Source: Bacillota bacterium (GTDB lineage Bacteria; Bacillota; Dethiobacteria; DTU022). From it: 39,123 nt of DNA. Position numbers and translations under genes: made by a program. Under the pieces are notes generated by a model, which had not been told where the DNA came from, did no database searches, and saw only the letters and a program-made list of their open reading frames with translations. The stretch covers positions 1 to 39,123 of the forward strand of contig JAABTH010000018.1 of NCBI GenBank assembly GCA_011389985.1, written 5' to 3'. This document shows positions 10,588 through 33,988 of the stretch, one piece after another; positions within the stretch are counted from its first letter, which is position 1; the number at the start of each line of letters is the position of its first letter.

Positions 10588-12771
10588 CTAGGCAAAGAGC
10601 TGCAGGGACATAATAATAATCAAAACCATAAAAAAGATCAGCAGATAATATTCAAAATTAGCTGTATTGACCAACACATAAAATCTGCCTTCATGCTTAT
10701 AGTCAATCTGAAAGAGAAAGTTAAATATTGTCATGAAAAATTTCTTCGATCCATGAAAAGCGCTGTGTAATATAAAAAGCCACAGATCATAGATATAGAG
10801 TAGTAGTGAAGATGTTTTTACCATCAGAGTATTAAAATTATGACCGCCTCTTTCAAGAGTATTAAGCTTGTAGCTAATTTTTTTTAGCGGCTCCAGGGTA
10901 TCCACTATTAAGTAATCAGCAGCTGAATCAAGAATTCTACCGGTTATACAATAATAAGTAAGCAGCCTGGGACTGTTAATATATACCCCGTCAACTGTAA
11001 GCTCGAGAGCACGGCCGCTTCTTGTGAAGATATAGGTGAACATTTTAACTGCCGGTCGGTAAACCAAATGTTCTATACTTAACCACCCGGGCAGCTTTAA
11101 CTCAAATAATTTGAACCTGGTTCCTACATAAAATAGGAGTGCGGCAATAGCAACAATATAAACCATTCCCTGCAAATCATGATGATCCCAGAAATTAACT
11201 TTAATGAGATAATTAAAGTAGTATTTTTCAAATGGAAAGATGCTAACAATTGGGCCGATAAGCTTTTTGAGGACAAAGAACGGATTGGTGCCAATAAATA
11301 CTATAATTGCTCCTATGGTGATGAAAACAGCTCTTTCATTCCAGGGTTCACTACCCTTAGCTGTCAATCCTTTTGGCTTCTTACCAAGAAATATCGAGCT
11401 AAAAAGACGGGCTATATAACAGGTGGTTATTGCGCCTGTTAGCATAAATATTCTCTCAGCCAAGTATAAACTGTAATCGTGGTGATGCTCAAAAGCTTCA
11501 ACTATAGCATGGTGAAGAAGCACCTTTCCGGTATAACCATTTAATCCCGGGATGCCGGCAATGCCCATCGCTGCAATTAGAAAAACTACTGTGGTGACCG
11601 GAAATTCCCGCCAAAGACCACCTAATTTTTTTAGTTCAATTTCACCGGTTCTAAAGTAAACTGCTCCTACCATCATAAACATGCCTGCTTTAAAAAAGGC
11701 ATGGTTTATTACATGCAGGGAAAAGCCGCCCATCGCCATGGGGCCTTCCAACCCCAGATATGCGCAAACTCCTATTCCCATTAAGATGTAACCCATCTGG
11801 CTGACACTGCTGTAGGCAAGAATGCGCTTGGCATTTTGTTGGAAAAGCGCCATAAAAGCGGCAGTAAACATCGTGAGAATGCCAAACCAGATAATAATAT
11901 AGCCAAATTCTGCCGTAAAAGACCACAATAACTTCGCTTCATGATCGGCAGGAGTATACATCACTGTAACAACCCTGAGGATGCCGTAAGCACCAGTCTT
12001 AATCATGATCCCAGACAAAAGCGCGCTTGCCGGTGAAGGTGCAACCGGGTGCGCCTTAGGTAACCAGATGTGCAGAGGAACCATCCCCGCTTTTATGCCA
12101 AAACCAATTACCAGCAAGGCAGCAACGAGAATGCTTCCAGGAATAAGGACAAGGGCTTCCAGAGATGGCGTAATAATTACAGAACCTGTATACCAGTAAA
12201 TCATAATCGAAGCGGATAAAATACAAAGGCCGCCAAAAATACCAAGAAAGAGATACAATCGCCCTGCACTTAAAGCTTCTTCTGTCTGATTATGGATAAC
12301 AAGCAAATAGGAAGCAAGGGACATCATTTCAAAGAAGAAGAAAAGACTGAAAAGGTCGCCGGTAAGAAATACACCCAGGGTGCCTCCCAGGGTCAATAGG
12401 TAAAAGGTATAATAGCGAGTTCGCCTTTGCTCATGAGTCATGTAGGTCAGGGAAAAAACAGTGGCTAAAAACCAGATGAAAGCTGAGAGAAGATTAAACA
12501 CAGCTCCCAGCTTATCAACTTTGAAATACAAAGGAATTTCGCCAAACCCAATATTATAACGATTAACCACAGATTCCTGCCAGCTTATATTTAACAACAA
12601 AGCAGAAAGTAAAACCACCAGGGCAGTAAGCGCCAGCACAAAATAATCACGATATTTTTCAGAGTATCGTCCGATAAATGCTGCCGCTGCAGCCCCTATT
12701 ATCGGAATCAGCGTTATGGCTAATGGCAGGCTGCTGCTAATAGTATTTTCAATCCCCAAAGATTCGCTCAT
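10588..12771 (-). CDS. Long NuoL/MrpA-type proton-conducting subunit (antiporter E)
   Basis: 727 residues, proton_antipo_M family membrane protein (NuoL/HyfB/MrpA/MrpD type). Seen: the conserved transmembrane Glu in FFFFEMMSL (E148), Lys in FGIKAGMVPLHIWLPKAHP (K227), Lys in MIKTGAYG (K258) and Lys in GYTGKVLLHH (K416), all expected of an ion-translocating antiporter fold of about 14 helices. Beyond the core there is a C-terminal extension of about 250 residues with further helices, ending NTANFEYYLLI. It matches two paralogues in this locus that share the LLHHAIVEA and EHHH stretch and the tail motif. It is the last gene of a five-gene cassette made only of such subunits. It probably acts in a membrane-embedded Mrp-like cation/proton pump. 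The exact ion is not readable. Confidence 0.82.
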   Translation of the reverse strand: MSESLGIENTISSSLPLAITLIPIIGAAAAAFIGRYSEKYRDYFVLALTALVVLLSALLLNISWQESVVNRYNIGFGEIPLYFKVDKLGAVFNLLSAFIWFLATVFSLTYMTHEQRRTRYYTFYLLTLGGTLGVFLTGDLFSLFFFFEMMSLASYLLVIHNQTEEALSAGRLYLFLGIFGGLCILSASIMIYWYTGSVIITPSLEALVLIPGSILVAALLVIGFGIKAGMVPLHIWLPKAHPVAPSPASALLSGIMIKTGAYGILRVVTVMYTPADHEAKLLWSFTAEFGYIIIWFGILTMFTAAFMALFQQNAKRILAYSSVSQMGYILMGIGVCAYLGLEGPMAMGGFSLHVINHAFFKAGMFMMVGAVYFRTGEIELKKLGGLWREFPVTTVVFLIAAMGIAGIPGLNGYTGKVLLHHAIVEAFEHHHDYSLYLAERIFMLTGAITTCYIARLFSSIFLGKKPKGLTAKGSEPWNERAVFITIGAIIVFIGTNPFFVLKKLIGPIVSIFPFEKYYFNYLIKVNFWDHHDLQGMVYIVAIAALLFYVGTRFKLFELKLPGWLSIEHLVYRPAVKMFTYIFTRSGRALELTVDGVYINSPRLLTYYCITGRILDSAADYLIVDTLEPLKKISYKLNTLERGGHNFNTLMVKTSSLLLYIYDLWLFILHSAFHGSKKFFMTIFNFLFQIDYKHEGRFYVLVNTANFEYYLLIFFMVLIIIMSLQLFA

Positions 12772-12886
12772 CTGCCCGGTGCTCCTTTATTATTAGGCAA
12801 ATACAATAAATAACCTGATACTTGTGATCTTCTCAAGTTATATTAAAAGTTCAATAAAATTATAGGTTAGATTAACAGAAAGCTGC

Positions 12887-14452
12887 CTACATGCTAAATA
12901 ACGATTTAGCTGCAGCAAGAGCCAGATTCCAGGCCCAGTTCTCAGGCATCAAGGCAAAGGCAAAGCAACCGACTGCAAGCAATCCCATGGGAAAAAGCAT
13001 ATGCCATGGCGCATCCTCCCTCAGAATGCCTTTCGGCGTTTGGTTGTTTGTAACATGATGGCCATGGGCATCCGGTTTGGAGCCTTCATCATGACCTTCT
13101 TCATGGCCATGAGCAGTTTCACTGCTACTTTCAGATGCAAAGAATGCAGTGATAACAATTGGAAAGTAATAAGCGGCATTAAGAAGACTACTGACGATAA
13201 GCACAGCAACAAAGAAAGGCTGACCTGCTTCAAGTGATGCCAAAGAGAGCTGCCATTTACTGATAAAACCATTAAAGGGCGGTATGCCAACCATGGTTAC
13301 AGCAGCAATTGTAAAAAATATCATAGTAGCCGGCATTTTTAAACCGATCCCTTTCATCTGACTGATGTTTCGAATACCGGTCTGCACTATAATTGCGCCT
13401 GCACACAAGAAAAGAAGGCCTTTCATAAAAGCATGCGTAAAGAGATGGTACAAACCCCCGATCAAACCCTGTTCACTTAAGAGGAAAACCCCCAGAAGAA
13501 TGTAACCAATCTGGGCAATACTTGAATAGGCAAGCCGGCGTTTAAGATCATCCTGTAACAAAGCCATAGCCGAACCAAGCAATATTGTAATCACAGCGAT
13601 GATTAGCATAACTGTATCCCAATCTGCATTATGGATAAATTCAGGGCTGTATATGTTAAATATTACCCTGATCATCCCGTAAATTCCTGTTTTGAGCATA
13701 ATACCCGAAAGAGCAGAACTGACCGGCGAAGGGGCAGCAGGGTGAGCATCAGGCAACCAGACATGCACAGGAAACATCCCAGCTTTTAACCCAAACCCGA
13801 CCATAAAAGCAGCAAAAGCGACCGTTGCTAATGCAGAGGGTTCAGTGATCAAACCAGGCCGGTTAAAGACAACAGAACCGGTGAGGTAATAAGTTATCAA
13901 CAGCCCGAAAAAAACCGACAAACCGCCGCCTACAGTCATGTACAAATACTTAGCGCCGGCAAACATAGTTATTGGTGTTTCTTCATGAGCAACCAAAATG
14001 TAAGTAGTCAGAGCCATAAATTCAAAGAAAAGAAAAAGACCCAGCAAATCGCCCGCAAAAATAGTTCCCATACAACCGCCTTCAGCTAATAAAAAGAAGG
14101 AATAATATCGTACTTTTTTATGTTCATGAGCCATATAACCGTAAGAAAAGCAGGCAATCATGAACCAAACAAAGGAAAAAAAGATACCCAGGAATATTGT
14201 GAGCTGATCAACTTTGAAGGAAACAGAAAGGGGAAATGAAAAATACTGAAAGATACCAAGCAGTATTTTCCCATCCCTGATTGCCGGGTACATAGTTAAT
14301 ACCAGAACAAAAAATAGCCCTGTCACCCCGATGCATATCAGTTCTTTGTAGGGTTCTAATCTATGTCCAAGCAAGAAAAGTAATAAACCGGAAACTATTG
14401 GAACAAAGATAATAATTGCCGGTAATAAAGTATGGACCACTTCATATTCCAA
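12887..14452 (-). CDS. MrpD/NuoM-type antiporter subunit with His-rich loop (antiporter D)
   Basis: 521 residues from a TTG start, which has GGAGGTG 7 nt upstream. Core residues of the family are present: E144 in FFEFMAL, K223 in FGLKAGMFPVHVWLPDAHP, K254 in MLKTGIYG and K399 in GFISKW. An unusual hydrophilic insert at about 441-466 carries six His and many Glu/Asp (AHGHEEGH, DAHGHH), between the last membrane helices. A comparable insert occurs in the MrpD gene of the plus cassette. It could bind metal ions or protons at the membrane surface; this is inference. Fourth gene of the five-subunit cassette. Confidence 0.83.
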   Translation of the reverse strand: MEYEVVHTLLPAIIIFVPIVSGLLLFLLGHRLEPYKELICIGVTGLFFVLVLTMYPAIRDGKILLGIFQYFSFPLSVSFKVDQLTIFLGIFFSFVWFMIACFSYGYMAHEHKKVRYYSFFLLAEGGCMGTIFAGDLLGLFLFFEFMALTTYILVAHEETPITMFAGAKYLYMTVGGGLSVFFGLLITYYLTGSVVFNRPGLITEPSALATVAFAAFMVGFGLKAGMFPVHVWLPDAHPAAPSPVSSALSGIMLKTGIYGMIRVIFNIYSPEFIHNADWDTVMLIIAVITILLGSAMALLQDDLKRRLAYSSIAQIGYILLGVFLLSEQGLIGGLYHLFTHAFMKGLLFLCAGAIIVQTGIRNISQMKGIGLKMPATMIFFTIAAVTMVGIPPFNGFISKWQLSLASLEAGQPFFVAVLIVSSLLNAAYYFPIVITAFFASESSSETAHGHEEGHDEGSKPDAHGHHVTNNQTPKGILREDAPWHMLFPMGLLAVGCFAFALMPENWAWNLALAAAKSLFSM

Positions 14453-14532
14453 AACAGCTCACCTCCGGAAGACATTAACAACAACAAATATTATGATAAC
14501 AGATTCTAACTTTTAATCCCTTATTTGTACTA

Positions 14533-16008
14533 TCAAAAATAAAGCCGTGCAACCATTCGGGCTAGATCAAGCGGCCAGTTATTCGGAAATATGGTGAATG
14601 CAAAAGCACCAACAGCGAGCAGTATAACCGGGATAATACGCAAAGGCTGCAAACGAATCCTTTGCCGTTCAATATTTTTTAATTCCCTGCACCCTAAAAA
14701 TGCATTGATAGATATTGGGAAATAATAAGAGGCATTTAGTATACTGCTTAACAATAAAACAAGAATTAAAGCAGGCATGCCTGCCTCAATTGCGCCTAAA
14801 CCAAGATGCCACTTTGATACGAATATGTTAAATGGCGGGATGCCAACAGCGCTTACCCCTGCTATTGTAAATGCTGTCATTGTAACCGGCATCTGCAAAC
14901 CGATCCCTTTCATTTCACTAATCTTTGTTTTCCCGGTATTTACATAGATAACCCCGGCACATAAAAACAGACAACCCTTCATAAAGGCATGGGCCATAAT
15001 ATGATAAGCAGAGCCGACAAAGGCCTGCTCAGTAAGCAAGCCAAGACCAAATAAGATATAACCTACCTGGGCAATACCGGAATAGGCCAACCGGCGATTT
15101 AAATCATCCTGAGCAAAAGCATTTATTGATCCATAAATCATGCTGATTATGGCCAAAACCAGGACAATGTTGTTCCAACCCGTTTCCTGAAGAACTGAAA
15201 GGCCATAAATATCGTGAAATACACGGTATAAACCAAGGACGCCGGTCTTGAGCATCATTACAGAAGATATGGTTGCAGCCGGTGTCGGCGAGGCAGCATA
15301 AGCATCCGGCATCCAGATATGCAAAGGAATCATTGCAGCCTTAATCCCAAAAGCAATCAGGAAACATACAAAAGCAACCAGCAGTATTGGTGAGCCGGCG
15401 CTGACCAGACCTCCAGTACCAAAAGATAAGCTTCCTGTCGTGTTATATATTATCGCTACAGCCCAGAATAAAGCAACCCCGGCAATGATCGTCATAAAGA
15501 AAAACTTTAACCCTGCTGCATACCCTTCCGGTGTTGATTTATAAGCAACCAAAGGGAAAAATGAGAGTGACATCAATTCAAAAAAGAAAAATAATGTCAA
15601 CATATTCCCACTTAAAGCAACTCCAAAACAACCACCAATAACTAACAAAAGAAAATAGAAAAACTTTCTGCCTTCTTCTTTATCACGGTAATAACCCACG
15701 GTATAACTGACAATGATCAGACTGAAGAATACAAAGATTAGAATAATGTAGGCAGATAAAATATCAACCCTGAATTCCAAGCCCAGAGGAGGTAATATAT
15801 TTAAGAACAGATAGTAAATCCTACCTGCTGAAACCGCAGGATACATCGCACCTGCCAAAAACAATGGCAGTACCACTGAAACCAGAAGTATTGGATTGCG
15901 CCATTCAGGGCGGTAACGATCAGCCAGCATTAACCCACCCGAACCCAATAAAGGAAATAGGACTATCAGGGCTGGTATAATTGATATAATGATTCCACTT
16001 TGAGACAT
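14533..16008 (-). CDS. MrpD/NuoM-type antiporter subunit (antiporter C)
   Basis: 491 residues, about 14 membrane helices, proton_antipo_M family. E144 (FFFFELMSL), K223 (FGIKAAMIPLHIWMPDAY), K254 (MLKTGVLGL) and a Lys in IFVSKWHLGL follow the standard pattern, in the same positions as in the D subunit next to it. GGGAGGGG lies 8 nt before the ATG. 23 nt separate it from the upstream gene, consistent with one transcript. It differs from typical MrpD by AYAASPTPAAT in place of the usual AHPxAPSPxS stretch. It probably forms one of the ion channels of the large membrane complex. Confidence 0.83.
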   Translation of the reverse strand: MSQSGIIISIIPALIVLFPLLGSGGLMLADRYRPEWRNPILLVSVVLPLFLAGAMYPAVSAGRIYYLFLNILPPLGLEFRVDILSAYIILIFVFFSLIIVSYTVGYYRDKEEGRKFFYFLLLVIGGCFGVALSGNMLTLFFFFELMSLSFFPLVAYKSTPEGYAAGLKFFFMTIIAGVALFWAVAIIYNTTGSLSFGTGGLVSAGSPILLVAFVCFLIAFGIKAAMIPLHIWMPDAYAASPTPAATISSVMMLKTGVLGLYRVFHDIYGLSVLQETGWNNIVLVLAIISMIYGSINAFAQDDLNRRLAYSGIAQVGYILFGLGLLTEQAFVGSAYHIMAHAFMKGCLFLCAGVIYVNTGKTKISEMKGIGLQMPVTMTAFTIAGVSAVGIPPFNIFVSKWHLGLGAIEAGMPALILVLLLSSILNASYYFPISINAFLGCRELKNIERQRIRLQPLRIIPVILLAVGAFAFTIFPNNWPLDLARMVARLYF

Positions 16009-16031
16009 TCAGATTTCCCCTCCCTGTCCGG

Positions 16032-17504
16032 CTAAAAAACTGTTCTAATTACTGCTTCAATGAACGGAATAGTGGTATGGTTGGCAAAAAGCCCGAATAC
16101 TATGGCCAAAACTGCGAGGATTACAGTTGGAGCCAACATTGTTAACGGAGCTTCAAAACCGGGTTTTTTCTCAAATTCGCCTTCTTTAAAAAAAGCATTT
16201 ACGATAATCGGCAGGTAATATATTGCATTTAATAAAGTACTGCTCAGAATAACATAAGCATATATTGGCATACCTGATTCAAGGCCTCCGGTTAATAAAT
16301 AAAATTTACTGATGTAACCAACAATTGGTGTTACACCCATTAAACCAAGAGCGCCAATGGTGAAAGCCAGCATAGTCAGAGGCATCTGCTTGCCGATTCC
16401 ATTTAGCTGATTAAGGTTCTTTTTACCGGTTACAGTAATAATCATTCCGGCACAGAAAAAGAGGGTAATTTTTAGGATGGCGTGATTGATAATATGAATT
16501 AACCCACCGGTAGCGCCGATAGGGTGCAGCATCAATACCCCTAAAGTAATATACCCTAACTGACCGATTGTAGAATAAGCCAACCTGAGCTTGAGTACAG
16601 TCTGTTTTATCGCCATAAACGAACCAACTATGATTGTAAAACAGACAACTACAGCCAATATGCGTGTCACATTTAGATCAGCGAGTACTTCTATTCCGTA
16701 TATGGAAAAGAATACCCTGGCGATTCCGAAAACACCTGCCTTAACGATCGCCACCGCATGAAGCAAAGCGCTAACCGGTGTAGGAGCTACCATAGCGCCG
16801 GGAAGCCACGAATGGAGTGGCATGATTGCCGCTTTTGTGCCAAATCCGGCAATCAAAAGGGCAAATATTATAGTAATACGGGTGCTGTTTTCAGCTGCCA
16901 CCGCACCCAAAATGCCGCCTGGGAAGAAATCAAGGGTTCCAACAAGATCATGAATCATGAATATAGAAAGAAAAACAAGGGCACCACCGGCAAGGCTATA
17001 GCTGATATATTTAATACCGGCCTTCACCGATTCGGTTGTACCGGCATGAACAACCAGAGGATAAGTGCAAATCGCAAGGTATTCATAAAAAATATAAAAG
17101 GTAAAAAGGCTGCCGGCAAAGGCAACACCCATAGCTGCACTGCATGAGAGCACAAAGAAAACAAAGTAGTTGCGCTGGTCATGCTCATGAGCCATATAGC
17201 CTATTGAATATACTGTGGCAAAAACCCAAAGGGTTGATGATACCAGGCCAAAAACCATACCGAGTGGATCAACCTTCAAAAATATCCCCATACCATCGAG
17301 TAGATTAAGTAACCGGAACTCAATTATATTCCCATTCATAACAGCCGGCAGCATAGAAGCAACAGAGATAAAAACTATCCCAACAGACACCAGTGCTACC
17401 ATGTGGCGGGTTTTTGTATTTTCTTCATCAAGAAAGCGAATAATTATAGCCCCAATTATAGGCACAATTACAGCTATGATTGGTTGGGGATAAACCAGGT
17501 TCAA
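16032..17504 (-). CDS. MrpD/NuoN-like antiporter subunit (antiporter B)
   Basis: 490 residues from TTG at 17504. The frame is open to ATG 17525, but GGAGGCGG lies between them and points to the TTG, giving MNLVYPQPII. With this start E141, K224 and K255 almost coincide with the residues E141, K223 and K254 of its close paralogue in the plus cassette (24193-25674), which supports the choice. The two share YEYL/YEFL around the Glu, WLPxAM and APTPVSALLHAVA, and GKK before the Leu-Asn-Gly stretch. Multi-span membrane protein of the proton-conducting family; second gene of the minus cassette. Confidence 0.83.
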   Translation of the reverse strand: MNLVYPQPIIAVIVPIIGAIIIRFLDEENTKTRHMVALVSVGIVFISVASMLPAVMNGNIIEFRLLNLLDGMGIFLKVDPLGMVFGLVSSTLWVFATVYSIGYMAHEHDQRNYFVFFVLSCSAAMGVAFAGSLFTFYIFYEYLAICTYPLVVHAGTTESVKAGIKYISYSLAGGALVFLSIFMIHDLVGTLDFFPGGILGAVAAENSTRITIIFALLIAGFGTKAAIMPLHSWLPGAMVAPTPVSALLHAVAIVKAGVFGIARVFFSIYGIEVLADLNVTRILAVVVCFTIIVGSFMAIKQTVLKLRLAYSTIGQLGYITLGVLMLHPIGATGGLIHIINHAILKITLFFCAGMIITVTGKKNLNQLNGIGKQMPLTMLAFTIGALGLMGVTPIVGYISKFYLLTGGLESGMPIYAYVILSSTLLNAIYYLPIIVNAFFKEGEFEKKPGFEAPLTMLAPTVILAVLAIVFGLFANHTTIPFIEAVIRTVF

Positions 17505-17540
17505 AATTACCGCCTCCAGCCTCATATAAAACTGTTGTTA

Positions 17541-19694
17541 CTATAAAATGAAGAGCAAACTAGTTGCCAATATGGCTCCAATGACAATTAAAACAATATA
17601 CATATCAAAATCAATGTTTGATATATTTATAGTCTGAAATCTGCTATCTCCTTTAGTGCTGTAATCAAACTTAAACATAGCCATAAATACCTTTCGCAAA
17701 AACAATCCCAATCTACTAAAGATGGCTGAAATCCCATCAAACCAGAGCCGGTAGATGCTATTAAACAAATCCGAGAAAAACAATGATATTCGGCGGCCTA
17801 AATCATTTGTTATAAATGAATCTGTATACCCTGCGCCATTTGCAGTTCTGACCAGGAGAGAAGGTGCGCTATGAAATCCCCTGTTAATATTATCATCTAT
17901 CAGGCGGCCTGTTTTAATAAAAACGAAACCCAGTACTTTTGTAACCGGTTTATATAAAGAGTATTCTACACTTAAATAATCGGGCGGTGCAAGTGTAAAA
18001 AGTTTTTTTCGTTTAGAAAACAAATATATGCCGGCTCCCAGGATAAGAGCTATAAAAATACCTAAAAAGTCATGCAGATTCCACACATTTGTTTTTAATA
18101 AATAATTGACATAGTACTCCTTGTAAGTAAAAGCTTCTGTCATAGGCACAATAACCCTGCTAATTATTGCTGCAGGAAATAACCCCAGAAAAGCAATCGT
18201 TGCGATAAAAGATAATGCTACAAACCTCTCCAGCCAATTTTCTCTCTGCCCTTCTTTTTCAAGTTTTACAAGAGTTTCTGAATGAGTTTTTCCCAGGAAT
18301 ACTGTAATAACAAGCTTAGTAATATAACATACTGTCAGACCGCTGGTTAGCATAAATAATTTTTCAGCCGCCCATAGATCCCAGAGGTGATGATGTTCAA
18401 ACGCTTCAACAATTGCATGGTGCAAAAGTGTTTTGCTCACATAACCGTTAAAACCGGGAATACCAGTAATGCCAAAGGCACAAACTAGAAAGGCGAAAAA
18501 GGTAAATGGAAACCTTTTCCACAAGCCTCCAAGTTTATCCATATCTACTTCGTGAAGGCGAGTATAAATTATGCCAAATAAAATAAAAAGTCCGGATTTA
18601 AAAAAAGCATGATTTATAATGTGATAGGAGAATCCACCGAAACCCATGGCGCCATCGTAGCCAAGATAACCGGCAGCGCCAATTCCCATTAAAATATAAC
18701 CCATTTGGCTGATGCTGCTGTAAGCCAAAAGTCTCTTGGCATTATTCTGAAGCACAGCCATCAGCGCTGCCAGCAGCATAGTCATAATGCCTATCCAGAT
18801 AATAACATGCCCTAGATTTTCAGTAAAATGCCATAGCCCGCTCTCAGCCAGATTCTGGCTGGGGGTATAGAGCATAGTTACCACTCGAATGATACCATAT
18901 GCTCCGGTTTTAATCATAATTCCGGAAAGCAGGGCACTGGCCGGTGCAGGAGCAACCGGATGAGCCTGCGGCAACCAGATATGCAAAGGAATCATCCCGG
19001 CTTTCACGCCAAAACCGGCAATCATAAGCACCGCAATCAATACAGCTGTTCCTTCAGAAATCACGATTTCCTGAAGCAGGGGCTCAATTGAAACAGTTCC
19101 GATACTATAATTAAGCAAGATTACGCCAGACAGCAGGGAAAGGCCACCAATTACTCCAAGATATAGATAGTTGCCACCTGCTTTAATCGCATCAGCGCTC
19201 TGGGTATGAACTACAAGTGCATATGCTGCAAAAGTCATAAGTTCAAAAAATAAAAGCAGGCTTAAAAAATCGCCACAGAGGAAAACACCGATACAACCTC
19301 CCAACGATAAAAGTAAAAATGTAAAATACCGTGTCTGCCTGCTGTCGTGCGCCATGTATGGTATTGAGGCAATAACAGCAATAAACCATATTACTGCAGT
19401 AAAAAGAGCAAATACAGCCCCGGTTAGATCTACCTTAAAGTTTATGGCTACACCGGCCAGGGCAGGGAGATCATAAAATACAGTGTAACCCTGCAATATT
19501 ACAAAAAACAGCTCCACCGTCAAATAAAGTGTAGCTGCTGCGATAAAAACAGCAACGAGTTTACTTAACCTCGCTGCCAGTAAACCGGCCAGGCCGATCA
19601 GTAAAGAACCTAAGATGGGTAAAAGCACAATTGCCAGGGGCATATTGCTGTTGATTAAAGAATCCTGAATCTGAATGACGAAGATGTTTGCCAT
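17541..19694 (-). CDS. Long NuoL/MrpA-type proton-conducting subunit (antiporter A)
   Basis: 717 residues. Core family residues: E151 (LLFFELMTF), K231 (FGVKAGMIPLHIWLPQAHP), K262 (MIKTGAYG), then YVSKTLLHHAIVEAFEHHH. A C-terminal extension with extra helices and an amphipathic stretch ends with a membrane segment preceded by NISNIDFDM, identical in the 665-residue paralogue. First gene of the minus cassette, GAGGGG seven nucleotides before ATG, facing mrpB across a divergent promoter region. Probably the distal large subunit of the Mrp-like complex, comparable in position and length to MrpA or NuoL, whose C-terminal lateral helices clamp neighbouring subunits. Such a clamp role here is inference. 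Confidence 0.83.
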   Translation of the reverse strand: MANIFVIQIQDSLINSNMPLAIVLLPILGSLLIGLAGLLAARLSKLVAVFIAAATLYLTVELFFVILQGYTVFYDLPALAGVAINFKVDLTGAVFALFTAVIWFIAVIASIPYMAHDSRQTRYFTFLLLSLGGCIGVFLCGDFLSLLLFFELMTFAAYALVVHTQSADAIKAGGNYLYLGVIGGLSLLSGVILLNYSIGTVSIEPLLQEIVISEGTAVLIAVLMIAGFGVKAGMIPLHIWLPQAHPVAPAPASALLSGIMIKTGAYGIIRVVTMLYTPSQNLAESGLWHFTENLGHVIIWIGIMTMLLAALMAVLQNNAKRLLAYSSISQMGYILMGIGAAGYLGYDGAMGFGGFSYHIINHAFFKSGLFILFGIIYTRLHEVDMDKLGGLWKRFPFTFFAFLVCAFGITGIPGFNGYVSKTLLHHAIVEAFEHHHLWDLWAAEKLFMLTSGLTVCYITKLVITVFLGKTHSETLVKLEKEGQRENWLERFVALSFIATIAFLGLFPAAIISRVIVPMTEAFTYKEYYVNYLLKTNVWNLHDFLGIFIALILGAGIYLFSKRKKLFTLAPPDYLSVEYSLYKPVTKVLGFVFIKTGRLIDDNINRGFHSAPSLLVRTANGAGYTDSFITNDLGRRISLFFSDLFNSIYRLWFDGISAIFSRLGLFLRKVFMAMFKFDYSTKGDSRFQTINISNIDFDMYIVLIVIGAILATSLLFIL

Positions 19695-20463: not shown

Positions 20464-20466
20464 CCA

Positions 20467-20826
20467 TTGGATCTCGAACTGCTGTTTATAAACTTTCCAT
20501 ATTTTGTAGCAATTATCCTTTTCTCAATGGGTACTTTGATCGTTCTTACTCAGACCAACCTCATTAAAAAGGTGATCGGTATAAATATCCTTCAAAGTGC
20601 TATATTTCTTTTCTTTATTACTGTCGGAAATATAGAAGGAGGGGTACCGCCAATTTACGACCCACAGTTTCCTGATGTTCTTTATATTAACCCTCTTCCA
20701 TCTTGCCTCATGCTGACAGGAATCGTAGTTAGTTTCAGCGTAACAGCATTTGCTCTAGCTCTAATTGTTAAGCTATATCTTTTCTATGGAACAATATGCA
20801 CTCCAAACTTTATGAAATTGAAATAG
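20467..20826 (+). CDS. mrpC: MrpC/MnhC subunit (NuoK-like)
   Basis: 119 residues, three membrane helices, TTG start with GAGGAGG 8 nt upstream, four nucleotides after mrpB. Seen: IGINILQSAIFLFFI and the hallmark LMLTGIVVSFSVTAFALAL of NuoK/MrpC proteins. NuoK-like subunits carry buried acidic residues of the proton path between antiporter subunits; here the first helix region lacks an obvious Glu, as is usual for MrpC. Product seems complete. Confidence 0.88.
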   Translation: MDLELLFINFPYFVAIILFSMGTLIVLTQTNLIKKVIGINILQSAIFLFFITVGNIEGGVPPIYDPQFPDVLYINPLPSCLMLTGIVVSFSVTAFALALIVKLYLFYGTICTPNFMKLK

Positions 20827-20841
20827 AGGTGAACCTCCGAA

Positions 20842-22374
20842 ATGGAATCGGTTTTAAAACTCCCCTTCTTATGCATAATAGGCACATTGGTAACTGCTTT
20901 TTGCATGCCGGTTCTGGCCAGATGGAAAAAAGATTTTTGTGCTCCAGTAGCCACATTCGCAGTCGGTTCAGTTTTTATCACCACTATTGTAATAGCCTAT
21001 AATGTAATGCATGGCGGAGTCATAAGATATGCCGTATCAGGATGGGCTCCACCATGGGGTATCGAAATAGTTGTCGATTCACTTTCCAGTATGATGATCA
21101 TGTTACTATCAGGGATTTGCTTCTTAATACTCATTTACAGTTTTTCGGCCATCAAGCATGAACTTGAACGTAAAGTTGTCGGATGGTATTATACAGCTTT
21201 TCTTCTTACTCTTGCCGGTATGATGGGACTGGTGGTATCAAATGATATTTTCAACTTTTATGTGTTTATTGAGGTAACAGGGCTTGGAGCGTGTTCCCTG
21301 GTTGCTGCCAAGGGAACACGCCAGGCAACTGAAGCAGCCTTAAAATATCTGCTGCTCGCAACAATTGGATCAGGGTTTATTCTTTTCGGAATTGGTTTTC
21401 TATATATGATTACCGGGCACCTGAATTTAACTTTTATCGCCCAGGAGCTAGTTCTGGTCAAAGATTCTTACCCATTTTTAATCTGGACTGCTCTAAGCTT
21501 TTTTACAGTTGGCTTTGGTGTTAAGTCAGCTCTTTTTCCTCTACACCTGTGGTTACCTGATGCTCATTCATCGGCTCCATCTCCCTCAAGCGCTGTATTG
21601 TCTAGCCTAGTTGTGAAAGTTTACATAATTGCTTTTCTCAAAATACTTCTTATTGCTTTCGGCCTGGAAATATTCCATGAAACCTTTATACGACATTTAA
21701 TTTTGGTTCTGTCGATCATCGCTATGCTTGCCGGTTCTTTCTTTGCCTTTGTGCAAATTGAGCTCAAGAGACGTCTGGCTTATTCAACAGTTGCCCAGGT
21801 AGGATACGTTTTTCTCGGAATAGGCCTTGGAACACCCTGGGGGCTTGCCGCCGGCTTGCTGCATATTGTAGTTCACGCCTTTATGAAAACCTGTCTTTTC
21901 CTTACAGCCGGGGCAGTTTATTATCAGACAGGAATAAAAAAAGTTAACCAGTTTTCCAATATGGGTTATAAAATGCCGATAACTATGGGGGCATTTACGA
22001 TAGCAGCTTTTTCAATGGTTGGTATTCCCCTTTTTGGCGGTTTTATCAGCAAATACGGTTTGGCATTAGGCAGTTTGGAAGCGGATTTGCCACTGATCAT
22101 CCTGGTTATTATCGTAAGCGGACTTTTAAATGCAACCTATTATTTTCCAATTATCGGTCAGGCTTACTTCTCTCAGGGTGATAACGAACACGAAAATTCT
22201 CACCAGGATAACAACCATGGAGACAGTCACGTTGATAATAAGTTTCAGATAGACCAGGTGCCGCTTAGCATGCTTGTTCCTATAGTTATTTTGGCTCTTG
22301 GAATAATATATCTGGGCATTTTTCCGGGAACAATTCTGGAATTTATAAATAAAACTGTAACCGCACTATTATAA
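20842..22374 (+). CDS. mrpD: MrpD antiporter subunit with His-rich loop (antiporter F)
   Basis: 510 residues, about 14 helices. E144 in VFIEVTGLGA, K228 in FGVKSALFPLHLWLPDAHSSAPSPSSAVLSSLVVK (shown in parts: K259 in SLVVKVY) and K404 in GFISKYGLALG mark a complete MrpD-type channel; position after mrpC matches canonical Mrp operons. A hydrophilic insert at about 446-465 holds four His and many Asn/Asp. The ribosome site GAGGTG is part of a small GAGG-TGAA-CCTC hairpin that overlaps the mrpC stop, so translation may be coupled. Confidence 0.9.
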   Translation: MESVLKLPFLCIIGTLVTAFCMPVLARWKKDFCAPVATFAVGSVFITTIVIAYNVMHGGVIRYAVSGWAPPWGIEIVVDSLSSMMIMLLSGICFLILIYSFSAIKHELERKVVGWYYTAFLLTLAGMMGLVVSNDIFNFYVFIEVTGLGACSLVAAKGTRQATEAALKYLLLATIGSGFILFGIGFLYMITGHLNLTFIAQELVLVKDSYPFLIWTALSFFTVGFGVKSALFPLHLWLPDAHSSAPSPSSAVLSSLVVKVYIIAFLKILLIAFGLEIFHETFIRHLILVLSIIAMLAGSFFAFVQIELKRRLAYSTVAQVGYVFLGIGLGTPWGLAAGLLHIVVHAFMKTCLFLTAGAVYYQTGIKKVNQFSNMGYKMPITMGAFTIAAFSMVGIPLFGGFISKYGLALGSLEADLPLIILVIIVSGLLNATYYFPIIGQAYFSQGDNEHENSHQDNNHGDSHVDNKFQIDQVPLSMLVPIVILALGIIYLGIFPGTILEFINKTVTALL

Positions 22375-22403
22375 TATTATGGAAGCAGTAGGAGGTGAAT
22401 GCT

Positions 22404-22916
22404 GTGCTTGAACGAATGAAAGGCGACCTGATGGGTTCAATCTTTATCTTTATCCTCCTGATGGCTTTCTGGTTGCTTATATCGGCCAGCACACATTGGC
22501 AGCACATTTTAGTTGGAGCTATATTCAGCTTAATCCTAACTGTATTTTGGAGCAATTTAAATATTTCAGCTGTAAACAGAACAAATTTTACAATTCTGCA
22601 GGCATTTTTGCTGATTAAATATTTTGTACATCTGGTTATTGAAATAGTTATTGCTAATATAAGTGTTGCTATGATTGTATTAAACCCCCGGTTGCCAATT
22701 TCTCCTGGTATCGTAATTATGCGGTGCGACCTGGAACGCAGCTTATTACGGGTACTCTATGTTAACTCAATTACACTAACCCCAGGAACCATTACAGTTG
22801 AATTAGAAGACAACTTATTGATTGTTCATGCATTAACGGAAGATGTTGCACATGGAGTTGAAGACTGGGCGCTTAACCGCAGGTTAATGGAAATGGAGGC
22901 TCTGTACAAAAAATGA
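22404..22916 (+). CDS. mrpE: MrpE/MnhE subunit
   Basis: 170 residues. Seen: two or three N-terminal membrane helices followed by the cytoplasmic MnhE domain with VNSITLTPGTITVELEDN and a C-terminal helix. An upstream in-frame GTG at 22395 lies inside the AGGAGGTG ribosome site; GTG 22404, 6 nt after it, is the likely start. The stop overlaps the mrpF ATG (ATGA). MrpE is a small membrane subunit needed for full Mrp activity. Confidence 0.88.
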   Translation: MLERMKGDLMGSIFIFILLMAFWLLISASTHWQHILVGAIFSLILTVFWSNLNISAVNRTNFTILQAFLLIKYFVHLVIEIVIANISVAMIVLNPRLPISPGIVIMRCDLERSLLRVLYVNSITLTPGTITVELEDNLLIVHALTEDVAHGVEDWALNRRLMEMEALYKK

Positions 22917-23179
22917 TTAATACAGTGCTTTATGTTATTGTAATCGGATTAATCTTGTTTTCTCTATTGGCTATAGTCAGAGCTTACAGTGGCCCAACAG
23001 TATTAGACCGGGTGGTGGCTATGAACGTAATAACCACCAATGTGGTTATCGTAATTTTAATTTTTGCCTACCTGGACAGTAGTTTCTACTACATAGACGT
23101 CGCATTTGTTTTTGTCCTGGGCGCTTTTATCGGAACTCTTTGTATCCTGAAATTACTGCGTGAAGGGCATATTATATAG
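22913..23179 (+). CDS. mrpF: MrpF/MnhF subunit
   Basis: 88 residues, three membrane helices. Seen: RAYSGPTVLDRVVAMNVITT, the conserved MnhF segment with its buried Asp-Arg, then YLDSSFYYIDVAFVFVLGAFIGT. Start overlaps the mrpE stop by 4 nt, so translation is coupled. Length and motifs are standard for the family. Confidence 0.9.
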   Translation: MINTVLYVIVIGLILFSLLAIVRAYSGPTVLDRVVAMNVITTNVVIVILIFAYLDSSFYYIDVAFVFVLGAFIGTLCILKLLREGHII

Positions 23180-23190
23180 GGGTGGTTAAT

Positions 23191-23574
23191 ATGGTACTCC
23201 ATTACATTGCTGCTTTTTTTCTGATTGGTGGATTTTTCTTTCTGATTGTCGGTGTACTCGGCCTTTTAAGACTACCGGACGTTTACACACGAATGCATGC
23301 TCTGGGTAAGTGCGACACCCTGGGAACAGGAATGGTTTTAGTCGGGTTAATGTTTTTAATACATGATGTTACCAATATCACCAAGCTGGTTTTGATCATG
23401 GTGATGATAGTAACAATCAACCCTGTAATTACTCATCTTATAGCTAAAACAGCCTATAACAGGGGCACACCAATGGCAGAGGGCAGTTTTTTAATTAATG
23501 ATTACGTGGCTTCTCAGCGCCGCCGAAGAAAGCGCATGACAGAAAGCAGCTTATCGCAGGAGGGAGAGGAATAA
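23191..23574 (+). CDS. mrpG: MrpG/MnhG subunit
   Basis: 127 residues, three membrane helices and a basic, hydrophilic C-terminal tail (RRRRKRM). Seen: GVLGLLRLPDVYTRMHALGKCDTLG, in shorter pieces the diagnostic LPDVYTRMHA of MnhG. A GTG at 23182 is in frame, but it falls inside AGGGGTGG; ATG 23191, five nucleotides further, is preferred. Completes the E-F-G block in canonical order. Confidence 0.9.
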   Translation: MVLHYIAAFFLIGGFFFLIVGVLGLLRLPDVYTRMHALGKCDTLGTGMVLVGLMFLIHDVTNITKLVLIMVMIVTINPVITHLIAKTAYNRGTPMAEGSFLINDYVASQRRRRKRMTESSLSQEGEE

Positions 23575-23577
23575 GCC

Positions 23578-23817
23578 GTGAATGACTTCTTAATTGTTCT
23601 TATGCTTTTAATCCTTATTGTAACAACTCTTTCTATTTTTGTTTTCAATGATTTACTTTACATAGTAATCATTTTTGGAGCGTACAGTATGGTTATGTCG
23701 CTAATCTGGCAACAGCTTAACTCACCCGACCTTGCTATAACTGAAGCAGCTGTCGGTATAGGCATGACGGTTTTAATGGTAACGGTGGTCACAAAAGTTG
23801 GGAGGCGTCCACAGTGA
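23578..23817 (+). CDS. DUF4040 (MbhD-like) subunit, split from MrpA
   Basis: 79 residues from GTG, two or three membrane helices. Seen: NDLLYIVIIFGAYSMVMSL and SPDLAITEAAVGIGMTVL, matching the DUF4040 domain found in the C-terminal part of MrpA and in MbhD of membrane-bound hydrogenases. The motif DLAITEAAVG carries the buried Glu typical of this NuoJ-like element. Overlaps the next gene in GTGA. Existing as a separate gene, as in archaeal Mbh operons, rather than fused to MrpA. Confidence 0.85.
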   Translation: MNDFLIVLMLLILIVTTLSIFVFNDLLYIVIIFGAYSMVMSLIWQQLNSPDLAITEAAVGIGMTVLMVTVVTKVGRRPQ

Positions 23818-24152
23818 TCAATATCAGAAGAATTTTATTCTATGGAATGTCGGTTACTCTTGTTGCCTTAATATCTTTTATGCTTATGCTGGCAGTAACC
23901 GAAATGCCCGTTTATGGTAAGCTCGATAACCCTACCAATAATATAGTTTATGAACGTTACGTCACCAAGGGTGTTGAGGAAAGCGGGGGAACTAACCTTG
24001 TTGCGAACATTTTGCTTGACTACAGAGGCTATGACACGCTTATGGAATCAACCGTACTTTTTGCAACAGTAATTGCAATTATGCTCGTTTGGGGAACAAG
24101 AAGTGTTGCCAAGGAAGAAGAACAGGAAGAAAATACTGAAGAACACAATTAA
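23814..24152 (+). CDS. MbhE-like subunit (MrpA C-terminal/MrpB N-terminal type)
   Basis: 112 residues from GTG, overlapping the DUF4040 gene by 4 nt. Seen: an N-terminal membrane helix, an extracytoplasmic loop with GGTNLVANILLDYRGYDTL, a second helix MESTVLFATVIAIMLVWG, then an acidic tail rich in Glu. The GGTNxVxxILxDxRGxDT motif is diagnostic for the segment that follows DUF4040 in MrpA and for MbhE. With the previous gene and the downstream antiporters it replaces a conventional one-piece MrpA. Confidence 0.83.
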   Translation: MINIRRILFYGMSVTLVALISFMLMLAVTEMPVYGKLDNPTNNIVYERYVTKGVEESGGTNLVANILLDYRGYDTLMESTVLFATVIAIMLVWGTRSVAKEEEQEENTEEHN

Positions 24153-24192
24153 TGCAGCTTGTTATTATCTGTTGGGAGAGGACGAAAGCTAA

Positions 24193-25674
24193 ATGAACTA
24201 CATACTATACCTGCCTCTTTTTATGATAATCTTTCCCATAGTCGGCGCACTAATAACCGGAATAGCATCTGAAGACAATGATCGCCTGCGTAACCCCCTG
24301 GCTGTAATCGTAAGCATAATCAGCGCAGCTGCAATGATTCTCATTCTCCATGAATATGTTCAAAACGGTGGCTGGGAACTCTTATTACACCAAATTGCCC
24401 CTGGACTGGAAATTAAATTTCGGGTTGATCCGCTTGCAGCTCTTTTTGGAGGCACTGCGGCAATCTTATGGTCTTTTTCGGTCCTTTATTCAACCGGATA
24501 TATGGCTCACGAACATAAGCGCAGGCGCTATTTTATTTTTTACCTGCTTTCACTGGGAATGACAATGGGAATAGCATTATCAGCAAACCTGCTTACCCTA
24601 TATATTTTCTATGAGTTTTTAACTATTTTTACTTACCCCTTAGTAATACATGAAGAAAATGACGAAGCGAAAAAAGCCGGTATTAAATATATTATCTATA
24701 GTTTTTTCGGAGCTGGTTTAATTCTGATCGGGCTAATTATAACCTATGGCAATCTTGGAACTTTAGAATTTGTTAGAGGCGGAATAGTAGACCTGTCAAC
24801 AGGTTCACTACTGCTCTGGCAAATTACTTTTATCTGCTTCATCTTAGGATTTGGCGTAAAAGCAGCAGTAATGCCTCTGCATGCATGGCTGCCTGCGGCT
24901 ATGGCAGCTCCTACTCCGGTAAGCGCCTTGTTACATGCTGTTGCTGTTGTAAAGTCGGGAGTATTCGGTATCTTACGGTCAATGTATTCAATTTTTGGCA
25001 TTACAGCATTAATCGGGTTGCAGATGGGTTATTTTGTTGCTGCCCTTGTTTCGATAACAATTCTTGTCGCTTCAATTATTGCCATGCAGCAGGATGTTCT
25101 AAAAAGAAGACTGGCTTTCTCAACAATTAGCCAGCTTGGTTACATTACACTGGGGGCCGGTCTTTTTAATGTAATTGGCCTTACTGGCGGTCTGCTTCAC
25201 ATTATTAATCATGCTCTTTTAAAAATCACTCTCTTTTTCTGCGCCGGCGCTATTATTACGGTAACTGGCAAAAAGAAAATTAGTGAACTTAACGGATTGG
25301 GCAAGAGAATGCCTTTAACGATGGTTGCTTTCACTATAGCCTCTATCGGTATGATTGGCATACCTCCCGTTAACGGTTTCATTTCAAAATGGTACCTGAT
25401 ACAGGGCAGCCTCGAAAGTGGTGCCTGGATTTTCATTGTAGTGCTAATCGGCAGCGCCCTTTTGAATGCTGCTTATTTTTTACCGATAGTCATTTCCGCC
25501 TTTTTTAAAAAAGGTGAATTTTCTTCTGTTGAGGGCCCTGAAGCGCCACTCTCCATGCTATTGCCAATCTTGATTCTGGTAGCAGGATGCCTGATTGTTG
25601 GCACAAACCTTCAATTAACAGTACCATATTTGGAAAACATCGCTAACTACCTGTTCTATTCAGGAGGTAATTAA
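24193..25674 (+). CDS. MrpD/NuoN-like antiporter subunit (antiporter G)
   Basis: 493 residues. E141 in YIFYEFLTI, K223 in FGVKAAVMPLHAWLPAAM, K254 in AVVKSGVFG, and GFISKWYL give the full set of antiporter residues. Closest relative in the window is antiporter B (16032-17504), by the shared APTPVSALLHAVA and TGKKxxxxLNGxGKxMPLTM stretches. GGGAGAGG precedes the ATG. It follows the DUF4040 and MbhE-like genes, where a redox module would lie in a hydrogenase operon, but none is present. Confidence 0.85.
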   Translation: MNYILYLPLFMIIFPIVGALITGIASEDNDRLRNPLAVIVSIISAAAMILILHEYVQNGGWELLLHQIAPGLEIKFRVDPLAALFGGTAAILWSFSVLYSTGYMAHEHKRRRYFIFYLLSLGMTMGIALSANLLTLYIFYEFLTIFTYPLVIHEENDEAKKAGIKYIIYSFFGAGLILIGLIITYGNLGTLEFVRGGIVDLSTGSLLLWQITFICFILGFGVKAAVMPLHAWLPAAMAAPTPVSALLHAVAVVKSGVFGILRSMYSIFGITALIGLQMGYFVAALVSITILVASIIAMQQDVLKRRLAFSTISQLGYITLGAGLFNVIGLTGGLLHIINHALLKITLFFCAGAIITVTGKKKISELNGLGKRMPLTMVAFTIASIGMIGIPPVNGFISKWYLIQGSLESGAWIFIVVLIGSALLNAAYFLPIVISAFFKKGEFSSVEGPEAPLSMLLPILILVAGCLIVGTNLQLTVPYLENIANYLFYSGGN

Positions 25675-25676
25675 AT

Positions 25677-27674
25677 ATGCCCCAGGAACTAGTTTCTTAC
25701 CTTCCACTTATTGCTGTAACAATGCCTTTAATAGCTTTTATATTAGTCACCTGTTTACCTAACCTGGCCTGGTGGCGCTCTGCATGGTCAATCATCGGCA
25801 GTCTTGGCACTCTTGTTGCAGTTGGAATGATGTTTCCGGCCCTTTCCGAAGGGAATATCATTGTCTTCCAGATGCCCATGATAGTTACTCCCCTTGATTT
25901 AACTTTTCGAGTAGACTTCCTCAGTTTCTATATTGCTGCTATTACTTCCTTCATCTGGTTGATGGCTACTATCTTTGCTATTGACTATATGAATCATGAG
26001 CATAATCAGGGCCGGTTTTTTGCCTTTTTCCTTCTGACACTTTCCGGAACTGTAGGGGTTCCGCTGGCCGGAGATCTTCTATCGCTGCTGCTCTTTTTTG
26101 AATTAATGTCGCTGGCATCATACGTTTTAGTAATTCATACCCAGACTGATGAAGCCTACAGCGCTGGCAACATATACCTTTATCTTGGTGTTTTTGGAGG
26201 CATGTGCCTGCTAACCGGTATCGGCTTAATATATTTCAGCTGCGGGTCGCTTGAAATAACCCAGCAGTTATGCATGGTAGAAGGTGTTAATAATTATCTG
26301 CTCGCTGCAGGCTTGCTCATGTTTATCGGTTTTGGGATTAAGGCAGGTATAGTTCCCCTGCATATTTGGCTGCCAAAAGCCCACCCCGTTGCTCCTGCGC
26401 CAGCAAGCGCTCTTCTTTCAGGGATTATGATTAAAGCAGGAGCATACGGCATTATCAGGACAGTTACAATGATTTATACTCCTGACAGCAGTTTCATGAG
26501 CGGTGAATATCTGGCTGCCGGGGTAAAAAACCTCTGGCACCTCGTTTCAAATGCAGGTTATGCTATCATCTGGATTGGAATAGTCACCATGCTTTTTGGT
26601 GTATGCCTGGCCTTGCTGCAGGATAACATAAAAAAACTGCTTGCCTGCAGCAGTATCAGTCAGATTGGTTATATCATAATGGGTATCGGTGTAGCGGCAT
26701 ATCTTGGTTATGACGGAGCTATGGGGCTGGCCGGTTCGACCTATCACATTTTGAACCATGCCTTTTTCAAATCTACTTTGTTTCTTGCTGCAGGCGCTAT
26801 TGTCTATTTAACTGGTGAGCTTAACTTGAGCAAACTGGGCGATCTCAGACATAAACTGCCCTTTACAACGATCGTTGTACTTATAGCCTCGCTGGGTATT
26901 GTCGGACTGCCTCTTTTCAACGGCTATGCCAGCAAAACGCTACTACACCACGCAATTGTCGAAGCTTATGAACATCACCATGTTTATTCTTTATATATCG
27001 CTGAGAAATTATTTACCATAACAAGCGCAGGTACTGTCTGTTACTTCCTGAAATTTTTATTCTTTGCATTCTGGCGCCCGGCGCCTGTTGAAATGCCTGA
27101 AATCAAACAAGAACCTTTGATGATGAAAATTGGGCTTGGTGTACTGGCAGCCTGCATGCTTTTTATTGGATTCTCGCCAAATCTTATTTTAACTAAATTT
27201 GTCGTCCCTACATTAAGTACTTTTACACTTGATACCTACTCCGTTAACTATCTTATGAAGATTAGTTTCTGGCACCTTGGGGACATTTGGGCAGTTGCTA
27301 TTGCACTTGTTCTCGGTGGGTTATTCTTTTATATTGCCCAACGCACTAACGCTTATCGCCTGAAAATACCTTTTTGGCTGGGCGCCGATTTTATCGGTTC
27401 GCTAGCCGGCAGGTTAGCAATCATAGTTTGGATTATTATTTCTTTTCCCTTTACACTTTTACAAAACTTAATGAGAACAACGTCACAGTATATTTATAAA
27501 AAAGTATTTACCCTGCTACAAAGCGTAGACTACAGACCAGGACAGAAAACAATTTTCCGATCTATCAACATCAGTAATATTGATTTTGATATGATTTTAG
27601 TCCTTCTCTCTTTTAGTATTATTCTGATTGTCGTCTTCTATATCCGCTTCGGAATTGATGTTTTCAGATTGTAA
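25677..27674 (+). CDS. Long NuoL/MrpA-type proton-conducting subunit (antiporter H)
   Basis: 665 residues, last gene of the plus cassette, AGGAGG nine nucleotides before ATG. E142 (LLFFELMSL), K222 (FGIKAGIVPLHIWLPKAHP), K253 (MIKAGAYG) and GYASKTLLHHAIVEAYEHHH. C-terminal extension of about 200 residues with extra helices ends in SINISNIDFDM plus a final membrane helix, as in antiporter A. Together with the DUF4040 and MbhE-like proteins it may do the work of a split MrpA. It is the third copy of this long type in the locus. Membrane-embedded cation/proton translocation is the likely role; the ion is unknown. Confidence 0.85.
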   Translation: MPQELVSYLPLIAVTMPLIAFILVTCLPNLAWWRSAWSIIGSLGTLVAVGMMFPALSEGNIIVFQMPMIVTPLDLTFRVDFLSFYIAAITSFIWLMATIFAIDYMNHEHNQGRFFAFFLLTLSGTVGVPLAGDLLSLLLFFELMSLASYVLVIHTQTDEAYSAGNIYLYLGVFGGMCLLTGIGLIYFSCGSLEITQQLCMVEGVNNYLLAAGLLMFIGFGIKAGIVPLHIWLPKAHPVAPAPASALLSGIMIKAGAYGIIRTVTMIYTPDSSFMSGEYLAAGVKNLWHLVSNAGYAIIWIGIVTMLFGVCLALLQDNIKKLLACSSISQIGYIIMGIGVAAYLGYDGAMGLAGSTYHILNHAFFKSTLFLAAGAIVYLTGELNLSKLGDLRHKLPFTTIVVLIASLGIVGLPLFNGYASKTLLHHAIVEAYEHHHVYSLYIAEKLFTITSAGTVCYFLKFLFFAFWRPAPVEMPEIKQEPLMMKIGLGVLAACMLFIGFSPNLILTKFVVPTLSTFTLDTYSVNYLMKISFWHLGDIWAVAIALVLGGLFFYIAQRTNAYRLKIPFWLGADFIGSLAGRLAIIVWIIISFPFTLLQNLMRTTSQYIYKKVFTLLQSVDYRPGQKTIFRSINISNIDFDMILVLLSFSIILIVVFYIRFGIDVFRL

Positions 27675-28753: not shown

Positions 28754-28786
28754 TACTTATAACCTCCTTTTCCCCAATTTGTTGGA

Positions 28787-30103: not shown

Positions 30104-30121
30104 TTGACTTCACCTCCCGGT

Positions 30122-33973: not shown

Positions 33974-33988
33974 AAGTAAATCCACCTC

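Follow-up and report, generated by a model that had tools for sequence, protein, structure and literature searches.

What would a bacterium do with eight antiporter-type subunits in one locus? In the complex I/Mrp superfamily, the number of such subunits is thought to set how many protons are moved per turnover, and it shows little natural variation: one in membrane-bound hydrogenase (MBH), two in canonical Mrp, and three in complex I. In contig JAABTH010000018.1 of a Bacillota bacterium (Dethiobacteria, DTU022; assembly GCA_011389985.1), a stretch of 39,123 nt that was analyzed whole and is called the window here, eight genes of this kind lie together with a single set of Mrp small subunits. 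We read this locus as a redox-free Mrp-type (CPA3) cation/proton antiporter in which one shared core is combined with either of two interchangeable arms, and we give this reading an even chance of being correct.

Eight antiporter-type subunits and one set of small subunits

The initial annotation, made from the sequence alone, had described eight antiporter-type subunits in two divergent cassettes, together with single copies of MrpB, C, E, F, G, DUF4040 and MbhE-like proteins; Pfam and NCBIfam searches confirmed this description. PF00361 was matched at E-values of 1e-54 to 1e-64 by five proteins encoded on the minus strand (727, 521, 491, 497, and 717 aa) and three encoded on the plus strand (510, 493, and 665 aa), and the open reading frames (ORFs) begin and end exactly at the limits of the span 10588-27674. 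The small subunits MnhB, Oxidored_q2 (MrpC/NuoK), MNHE, MrpF, PhaG/MnhG, MbhD, and MbhE each occur once, all in the plus cassette. Genes of the minus cassette were named m5-m4-m3-m2-m1 by ascending coordinate and are transcribed from m1 to m5; the order in the plus cassette is B-C-p1-E-F-G-mbhD-mbhE-p2-p3. Hereafter, the core denotes MrpB, C, p1, E, F, G, MbhD, and MbhE; arm A denotes p2-p3; and arm B denotes m2-m3-m4-m5. The genes are as follows.

10588-12771, minus strand: m5, long NuoL/MrpA-type antiporter subunit, 727 aa, end of arm B (PF00361, E 1e-58; grouped with the m1 type in the tree; key residues kept)
12887-14452, minus strand: m4, middle-type antiporter subunit, 521 aa, arm B (PF00361, E 2.6e-64; in a clade with m3 and the Rnf-operon copy)
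14533-16008, minus strand: m3, middle-type antiporter subunit, 491 aa, arm B (PF00361, E 2.1e-60; orthologues adjoin m2 in 27 genomes)
16032-17525, minus strand: m2, middle-type antiporter subunit, 497 aa, arm B, sister of p2 in the tree (PF00361, E 1.2e-58)
17541-19694, minus strand: m1, additional long NuoL/MrpA-type subunit, 717 aa, heading the minus cassette (PF00361, E 3.2e-58; AlphaFold model; Foldseek)
20014-20463, plus strand: MrpB (MnhB), core (PF04039, E 2.5e-17)
20467-20826, plus strand: MrpC (NuoK-like), core (PF00420, E 1.3e-19)
20842-22374, plus strand: p1, core antiporter subunit of the MrpD/NuoN-side type, 510 aa (PF00361, E 8.4e-62; own clade in the tree)
22395-22916, plus strand: MrpE, core (PF01899, E 1.3e-30)
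22913-23179, plus strand: MrpF, core (PF04066, E 4.8e-11)
23182-23574, plus strand: MrpG, core (PF03334, E 1.3e-26)
23578-23817, plus strand: MbhD-like (DUF4040-type), core (PF13244, E 5.8e-13)
23814-24152, plus strand: MbhE-like, core (PF20501, E 1.6e-09)
24193-25674, plus strand: p2, middle-type antiporter subunit, 493 aa, arm A, sister of m2 in the tree (PF00361, E 1.2e-60)
25677-27674, plus strand: p3, NuoL/MrpA-type subunit, 665 aa, end of arm A (PF00361, E 2.3e-54; AlphaFold model)

The integrity of the eight subunits, also claimed at the outset, was borne out by residue alignment and by substitution patterns. When aligned with E. coli NuoL, M, and N and with S. aureus MnhA2 and D2, all eight were found to keep the Glu of transmembrane helix (TM) 5, the Lys residues of TM7, TM8, and TM12, and the conserved His. 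The antiporter proteins are 76-92% identical to those of the nearest relative, and the ratio of nonsynonymous to synonymous differences (pN/pS) in these comparisons was 0.07-0.22 for all eight, indicating purifying selection. Because this ratio is low even though synonymous sites are near saturation, none of the eight looks decayed.

The gene content is that of the Mrp (CPA3) family: MrpB, C, E, F, and G accompany the antiporter-type subunits, with Pfam matches above the curated cut-offs; the MrpA- and MrpD-type subunits carry the TM5 Glu, the TM7/TM8 Lys, and the TM12 Lys; and the fold of m1 matches MrpA. Accordingly classed, the locus is predicted to exchange Na+(K+) for H+. NuoL-like subunits are also known in DabAB/MpsAB, and soda lakes are rich in carbonate, so that a pump for dissolved inorganic carbon or another ion was considered as well; however, no protein among those of the window scanned with Pfam matched DUF2309 (DabA/MpsB), and the full set of Mrp small subunits is present, which makes such a pump extremely improbable.

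Three subunit types, and the age of the arms

A phylogeny of the eight subunits, proposed in the initial annotation, was computed by a quick method from 95 proteins, with support values from the SH-like approximate likelihood ratio test (SH-aLRT) only. Three types were resolved: p1; a middle type comprising p2, m2, m3, and m4; and a long NuoL/MrpA-like type comprising p3, m1, and m5. In this tree, m2 and p2 form sister clades, and m3 and m4 group with the copy from an Rnf operon described below. Because the m2 and p2 clades each span several families, both arms appear to be old in the lineage and to predate the split of these families. An origin of the two cassettes by independent import was considered and rejected, finding support in neither synteny nor the tree.

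AlphaFold models of single chains gave an antiporter fold for both m1 (predicted local distance difference test score, pLDDT, 82) and p3 (pLDDT 79), with the C-terminal ends modeled at a pLDDT of about 40-60. In m1, about 96 residues of helix lie between TM15 and TM16, and the top Foldseek match was B. pseudofirmus MrpA (7qru_A); the lateral helix of p3, at 46 residues, is about half as long. The length of this lateral helix was also tried as a ruler of chain length and rejected: the linker is 175 residues long in a three-antiporter Rnf-Mrp copy, versus 73, 128, and 148 residues in the eight-antiporter locus.

Core and arm combinations in relatives

A search for the locus in relatives, likewise proposed at the outset, was carried out by protein scan, and core and arm variants were found in soda-lake and serpentinite genomes. 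The named relatives among the carriers were 'Syntrophomonadaceae' metagenome-assembled genomes (MAGs) from Cock Soda Lake (CSSed), together with MAGs assigned to Dethiobacter sp. and Clostridiales (CROMO serpentinite site and Tomsk). Judging from these names, the carriers would belong to the class Dethiobacteria. In E. coli genomes, nothing similar was found at the DNA level, and outside the lineage at most four antiporter genes were seen in a row (records of Actinobacteria, Coriobacteriia, Schekmanbacteria, and Parablautia).

The core was found with arm A in L048 (genome G026, 96% complete), L201, L203, and L205, and with arm A containing a diverged long subunit in L208, L210, and L213. With arm A missing, the core and arm B form a single-strand run in L214 (G087, 98% complete) and L215 (G086, 93%), where arm B lies directly behind mbhE in the order m2-m3-m4-L, and in L177, L178, and L182, where the order is m4-m2-m3-L and the genomes are 75-85% complete; L182 and L215 are truncated on the 5' side. 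All three parts lie on one strand in L175, which has seven antiporter genes (G085, 99% complete, 30 contigs), and in L216, where six are visible and the start lies off the contig. L150/L151 is also a single-strand run with seven antiporter genes, in which an m4-like and a long subunit replace arm A. In the window and in several relatives of its family, arm B is divergent from the core and arm A; in L045/L046 and others, it is unlinked to them. Thus the core with arm A, the core with arm B, and the core with both all exist as single-strand operons. Another route to five antiporter genes was seen in L206 (3300-12600) and L207 (5000-14600), where three diverged long antiporter subunits, 26-28% identical to p3, stand in tandem behind the core and p2.

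Cores without any attached arm were found in L197, L199, and L200. Because arm B lies on another contig of those genomes, none of which has a p2 orthologue at an E-value of 1e-125, these cores suggest that arm B may be assembled in trans. A core without an attached arm was also found in L204, with arm pieces elsewhere in the genome. Among 37 genomes at least 95% complete, orthologues of m3 and p1 were both present in 12, m3 alone in 1, p1 alone in 7, and neither in 17 (Fisher p = 0.0004, uncorrected for kinship; because the genomes are related, this value overstates the evidence). Genomes with arm B thus nearly always carry the core, whereas the converse does not hold.

These data bear on whether the minus cassette might be a transporter of its own, or a redundant set of paralogues, unrelated to the MrpB-G core. 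Such independence would fit the divergent transcription in the window and the genomes in which the arm-B cassette is unlinked to the core (L046 and L155; cores L197 and L200). However, none of the loci read showed small subunits belonging to arm B itself, arm B hardly occurs without the core, and in L214 and L215 it directly follows mbhE; we therefore regard two independent complexes as improbable. The initial annotation would have been undermined had the cassettes been independent copies that do not co-occur elsewhere; instead, they co-occur across families and lie in one operon in L150/L151, L175, and L216.

The same single-strand runs raise the possibility that the core and all arms form one chain of seven or eight antiporter units; no membrane arm in the complex I/Mrp superfamily would be longer. 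The presence of up to seven antiporter genes in one run (L175, L216, and L150/L151), as well as the intact and constrained state of all eight subunits in the window, would be consistent with such a chain. Against it, the eight include three subunits of the NuoL/MrpA type, which in known complexes is terminal (a cap); the core is also found with either arm alone; and the lateral-helix linker is no longer where antiporters are more numerous. Of the two arrangements first envisaged, two alternative complexes that use the small subunits in common are favored over an unusually long multi-channel pump, because each arm alone joins the core elsewhere and each ends in a NuoL/MrpA-type subunit; a single long complex is the less supported of the two, and we consider it unlikely.

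Redox genes in the genome and beside the locus

The locus had also been described as lacking a redox module. Within 10588-27674 this was found to hold, as no NuoB, C, D, H, or I gene lies inside the span. Moreover, no protein matching PF00146 (NuoH) or PF00346 (NuoD/hydrogenase type) was found in the whole genome (97% complete), with both searches being positive in 11 of 14 control genomes. Complex I requires NuoH and NuoD, with NuoB, C, and I, and a group-4 hydrogenase, MBH, or formate hydrogenlyase requires a 49-kDa-family large subunit and a NuoH-like subunit. Because the genome has no PF00146 or PF00346 protein, neither complex I nor a group-4 hydrogenase was detected in it, and the window likewise lacks the parts of the latter; the thought that redox subunits might lie in a third locus and form ordinary complexes thus fails for subunits of the complex I type.

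The description does not, however, extend to the flank. Beginning 100 bp downstream of p3, and convergent with it, are the genes rnfD-rnfC-fdhB-fdhA(Sec)-fdhE, a formate dehydrogenase (FDH)-RnfCD unit:

27776-28753, minus strand: RnfD-like membrane flavoprotein (TIGR01946, 268.6 bits; adjacency in at least seven relatives)
28787-30103, minus strand: RnfC-like protein (TIGR01945, 534.7 bits)
30122-30907, minus strand: FdhB, FdnH-like Fe-S subunit with a C-terminal TM at 226 (TIGR01582, 231.6 bits)
30908-33985, minus strand: FdhA, formate dehydrogenase-N alpha type with a Tat signal and an in-frame TGA (selenocysteine) at codon 205 (the FDH-N alpha match continues past the TGA)
33989-34900, minus strand: FdhE accessory protein (TIGR01562, E 9.4e-15)

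SelB is encoded in the genome that carries this selenocysteine-type fdhA. Within the family, at least seven further genomes retain the convergent adjacency, which is conserved in G000, G001, G003, G005, G009, G015, G020, and G023. Because the same genes are also found apart from any antiporter locus, we treat the unit as a neighbor of the pump locus. An Rnf complex consists of rnfA, B, C, D, E, and G together, of which only rnfC and rnfD are present here; the full set lies on contig C43.

C43 holds the other three of the 11 PF00361 genes in the genome, in a separate operon with the order complete rnfCDGEAB, three-antiporter Mrp set, and apbE (L032, 9328-18296; L052, 420-6063). This order is conserved across the class (L053, L054, L157, L164, and L181); L181 (HUE98_01685-01765) would be from the genome of Ca. 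Contubernalis alkaliaceticus. The Rnf-Mrp operon shares the small subunits and the three antiporter types with the eight-subunit locus, but differs in sitting behind rnfCDGEAB and ending in apbE. In PMC10608574, the Rnf and antiporter genes are listed apart, and the latter are named both as antiporter and as the membrane part of NADH:quinone oxidoreductase. The long subunit of this operon (L032, 10414-12693) contains near-repeats (e.g. YKKTGKAAQNLAKHSNDLD) ahead of its last TM helix.

Could the FDH-RnfCD unit drive the antiporter array or physically join it, in place of a NuoB/C/D/H/I module? The conserved convergent adjacency, the joining of Rnf-type and Mrp modules in the rnfCDGEAB-Mrp-apbE run on C43, and the presence of the arm-B cassette beside fdhE/tatC/mobA-like genes in G017 and JPNG would all be in keeping with a redox-driven pump. 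However, the FDH-RnfCD unit is convergent with the locus rather than co-transcribed, it is found in several genomes (L187-L192) where arm B is absent or where its neighbors are other genes, and neither the single-strand operon L150/L151 nor the core-plus-arm-A operon L048 is adjoined by electron-transfer genes of a complex. On balance, a redox-driven pump seems distinctly unlikely.

Three further observations concern the surroundings. First, in the window (27776-33985) and in L187-L192, a Tat-exported, selenocysteine-containing FDH-N-type FdhAB is joined to RnfC and RnfD, which replace the cytochrome b subunit; this four-gene set recurs in several families, no published description of it was found, and its products could form a transmembrane formate:NAD oxidoreductase, possibly ion-coupled. 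Second, in L155 (14504-17148) and L043 (11100-13123), the arm-B cassette is divergent from fdhE-tatC-mobA-like genes, which serve the maturation and export of formate dehydrogenase, with no dehydrogenase alongside. Third, the window contains three consecutive ArsP_1 permease ORFs at 1980-4300 (176 and 162 aa, about half length, and 391 aa, full length) and, at 35325-39111, a PhsA/PsrA-like molybdopterin oxidoreductase with an Fe-S subunit and a TorD-like chaperone; no PsrC-type membrane subunit was seen between these last genes and the contig end. Between the two cassettes, no Rfam match to an Na+ or other known riboswitch was found except a sub-threshold RAGATH-30 (E 0.24), and a promoter scan returned as many sites as in shuffled sequences.

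A proposed shared core with interchangeable arms

How, then, might eight subunits share one core? Under the reading preferred here, the core with arm A would form a three-antiporter Mrp of the ordinary kind, and the core with arm B, with m1 as an additional NuoL-type subunit, would form a complex of five or six antiporter units. This reading is favored by the single set of small subunits for eight antiporter subunits, by the existence of all three combinations as single-strand operons, and by the presence of three NuoL/MrpA-type subunits (p3, m1, and m5), with one at the end of each arm. We further propose, tentatively and as something possible rather than probable, that the locus encodes a gear-shifting exchanger, in which the choice between the short arm (three units in total) and the long arm (five or six) would set the H+/Na+ ratio, with the long arm being supplied in trans in some relatives. 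Each antiporter unit would provide a half-channel pair for one proton (or cation), so that for each cation the longer form would carry a larger number of protons. An inverted pH gradient and a small proton-motive force prevail at high pH and high Na+; under these conditions, raising the H+/Na+ ratio could keep Na+ expulsion going, and the shorter form could serve as the cheaper gear when the proton-motive force is large. For illustration, if the membrane potential is -180 mV, the inverted pH gradient amounts to 90 mV, and Na+ differs tenfold across the membrane, exporting one Na+ would cost 240 mV versus 90 mV per H+, so that at least 3 H+/Na+ would be needed, and more under worse conditions. 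We infer from sequence the assembly as described, the mutual exclusion of the arms on one core, the ion, and the stoichiometry.

Several points weigh against this reading. Gene order and co-occurrence are no proof of assembly, and a partition into three plus five leaves m1 without a clear place. In G083 and G085, a single run contains the core, arm A, and arm B, an arrangement that is compatible with one long complex as well. Because the linker length of the lateral helix is independent of antiporter gene number across loci, it lends structural support to neither layout. Most relatives are fragmented MAGs, and absences among them are weak evidence. Finally, because FDH-RnfCD flanks the locus convergently in several genera, the pump may be functionally linked to a redox reaction.

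Comparison with known systems and implications

Canonical Mrp/Mnh of Bacillus and Staphylococcus (6z16 and 7qru; S. aureus Mnh2 in L171) shares MrpB, C, E, F, and G and the antiporter Glu and Lys residues with the locus, but has two antiporter subunits and MbhD/MbhE-like parts fused in MrpA, whereas MrpA is split here and antiporters number eight. Because canonical seven-subunit Mrp has exactly two antiporter subunits, A and D, as against eight here and three to seven in relatives, the locus is not a canonical Mrp. Haloarchaeal Mrp (Halostagnicola larsenii plasmid, L174) has the same E, F, G, DUF4040, B, and C, but only three antiporter subunits, and is thus similar to the core with arm A. Equal in content to the core with arm A is an operon on a Peptoclostridium acidaminophilum plasmid (NZ_CP007453, EAL2_RS12435-12475), in which three antiporter subunits accompany a single set of small subunits (E, F, G, MbhD, MbhE, B, and C) and no redox genes adjoin; its middle subunit is 51% identical to p2, but it lies on one strand and has no arm B. 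MBH of P. furiosus (6cfw) and E. coli formate hydrogenlyase share MbhD/E-like parts with the locus, and MbhH is the best PDB sequence match of m1 and p2; unlike them, the locus has no hydrogenase, NuoB, NuoH, or NuoD-type subunit, and NuoH and NuoD were not found genome-wide either. Among open-access full texts, none was found that describes an Mrp locus with more than three antiporter subunits.

Natural loci with 3, 5, 6, 7, and 8 antiporter units, all with homologous small subunits and none with a redox arm of the complex I type, are available in this lineage. How stoichiometry depends on unit number could therefore be measured directly, and the answer would help explain how extreme alkaliphiles expel Na+ under a weak proton-motive force.

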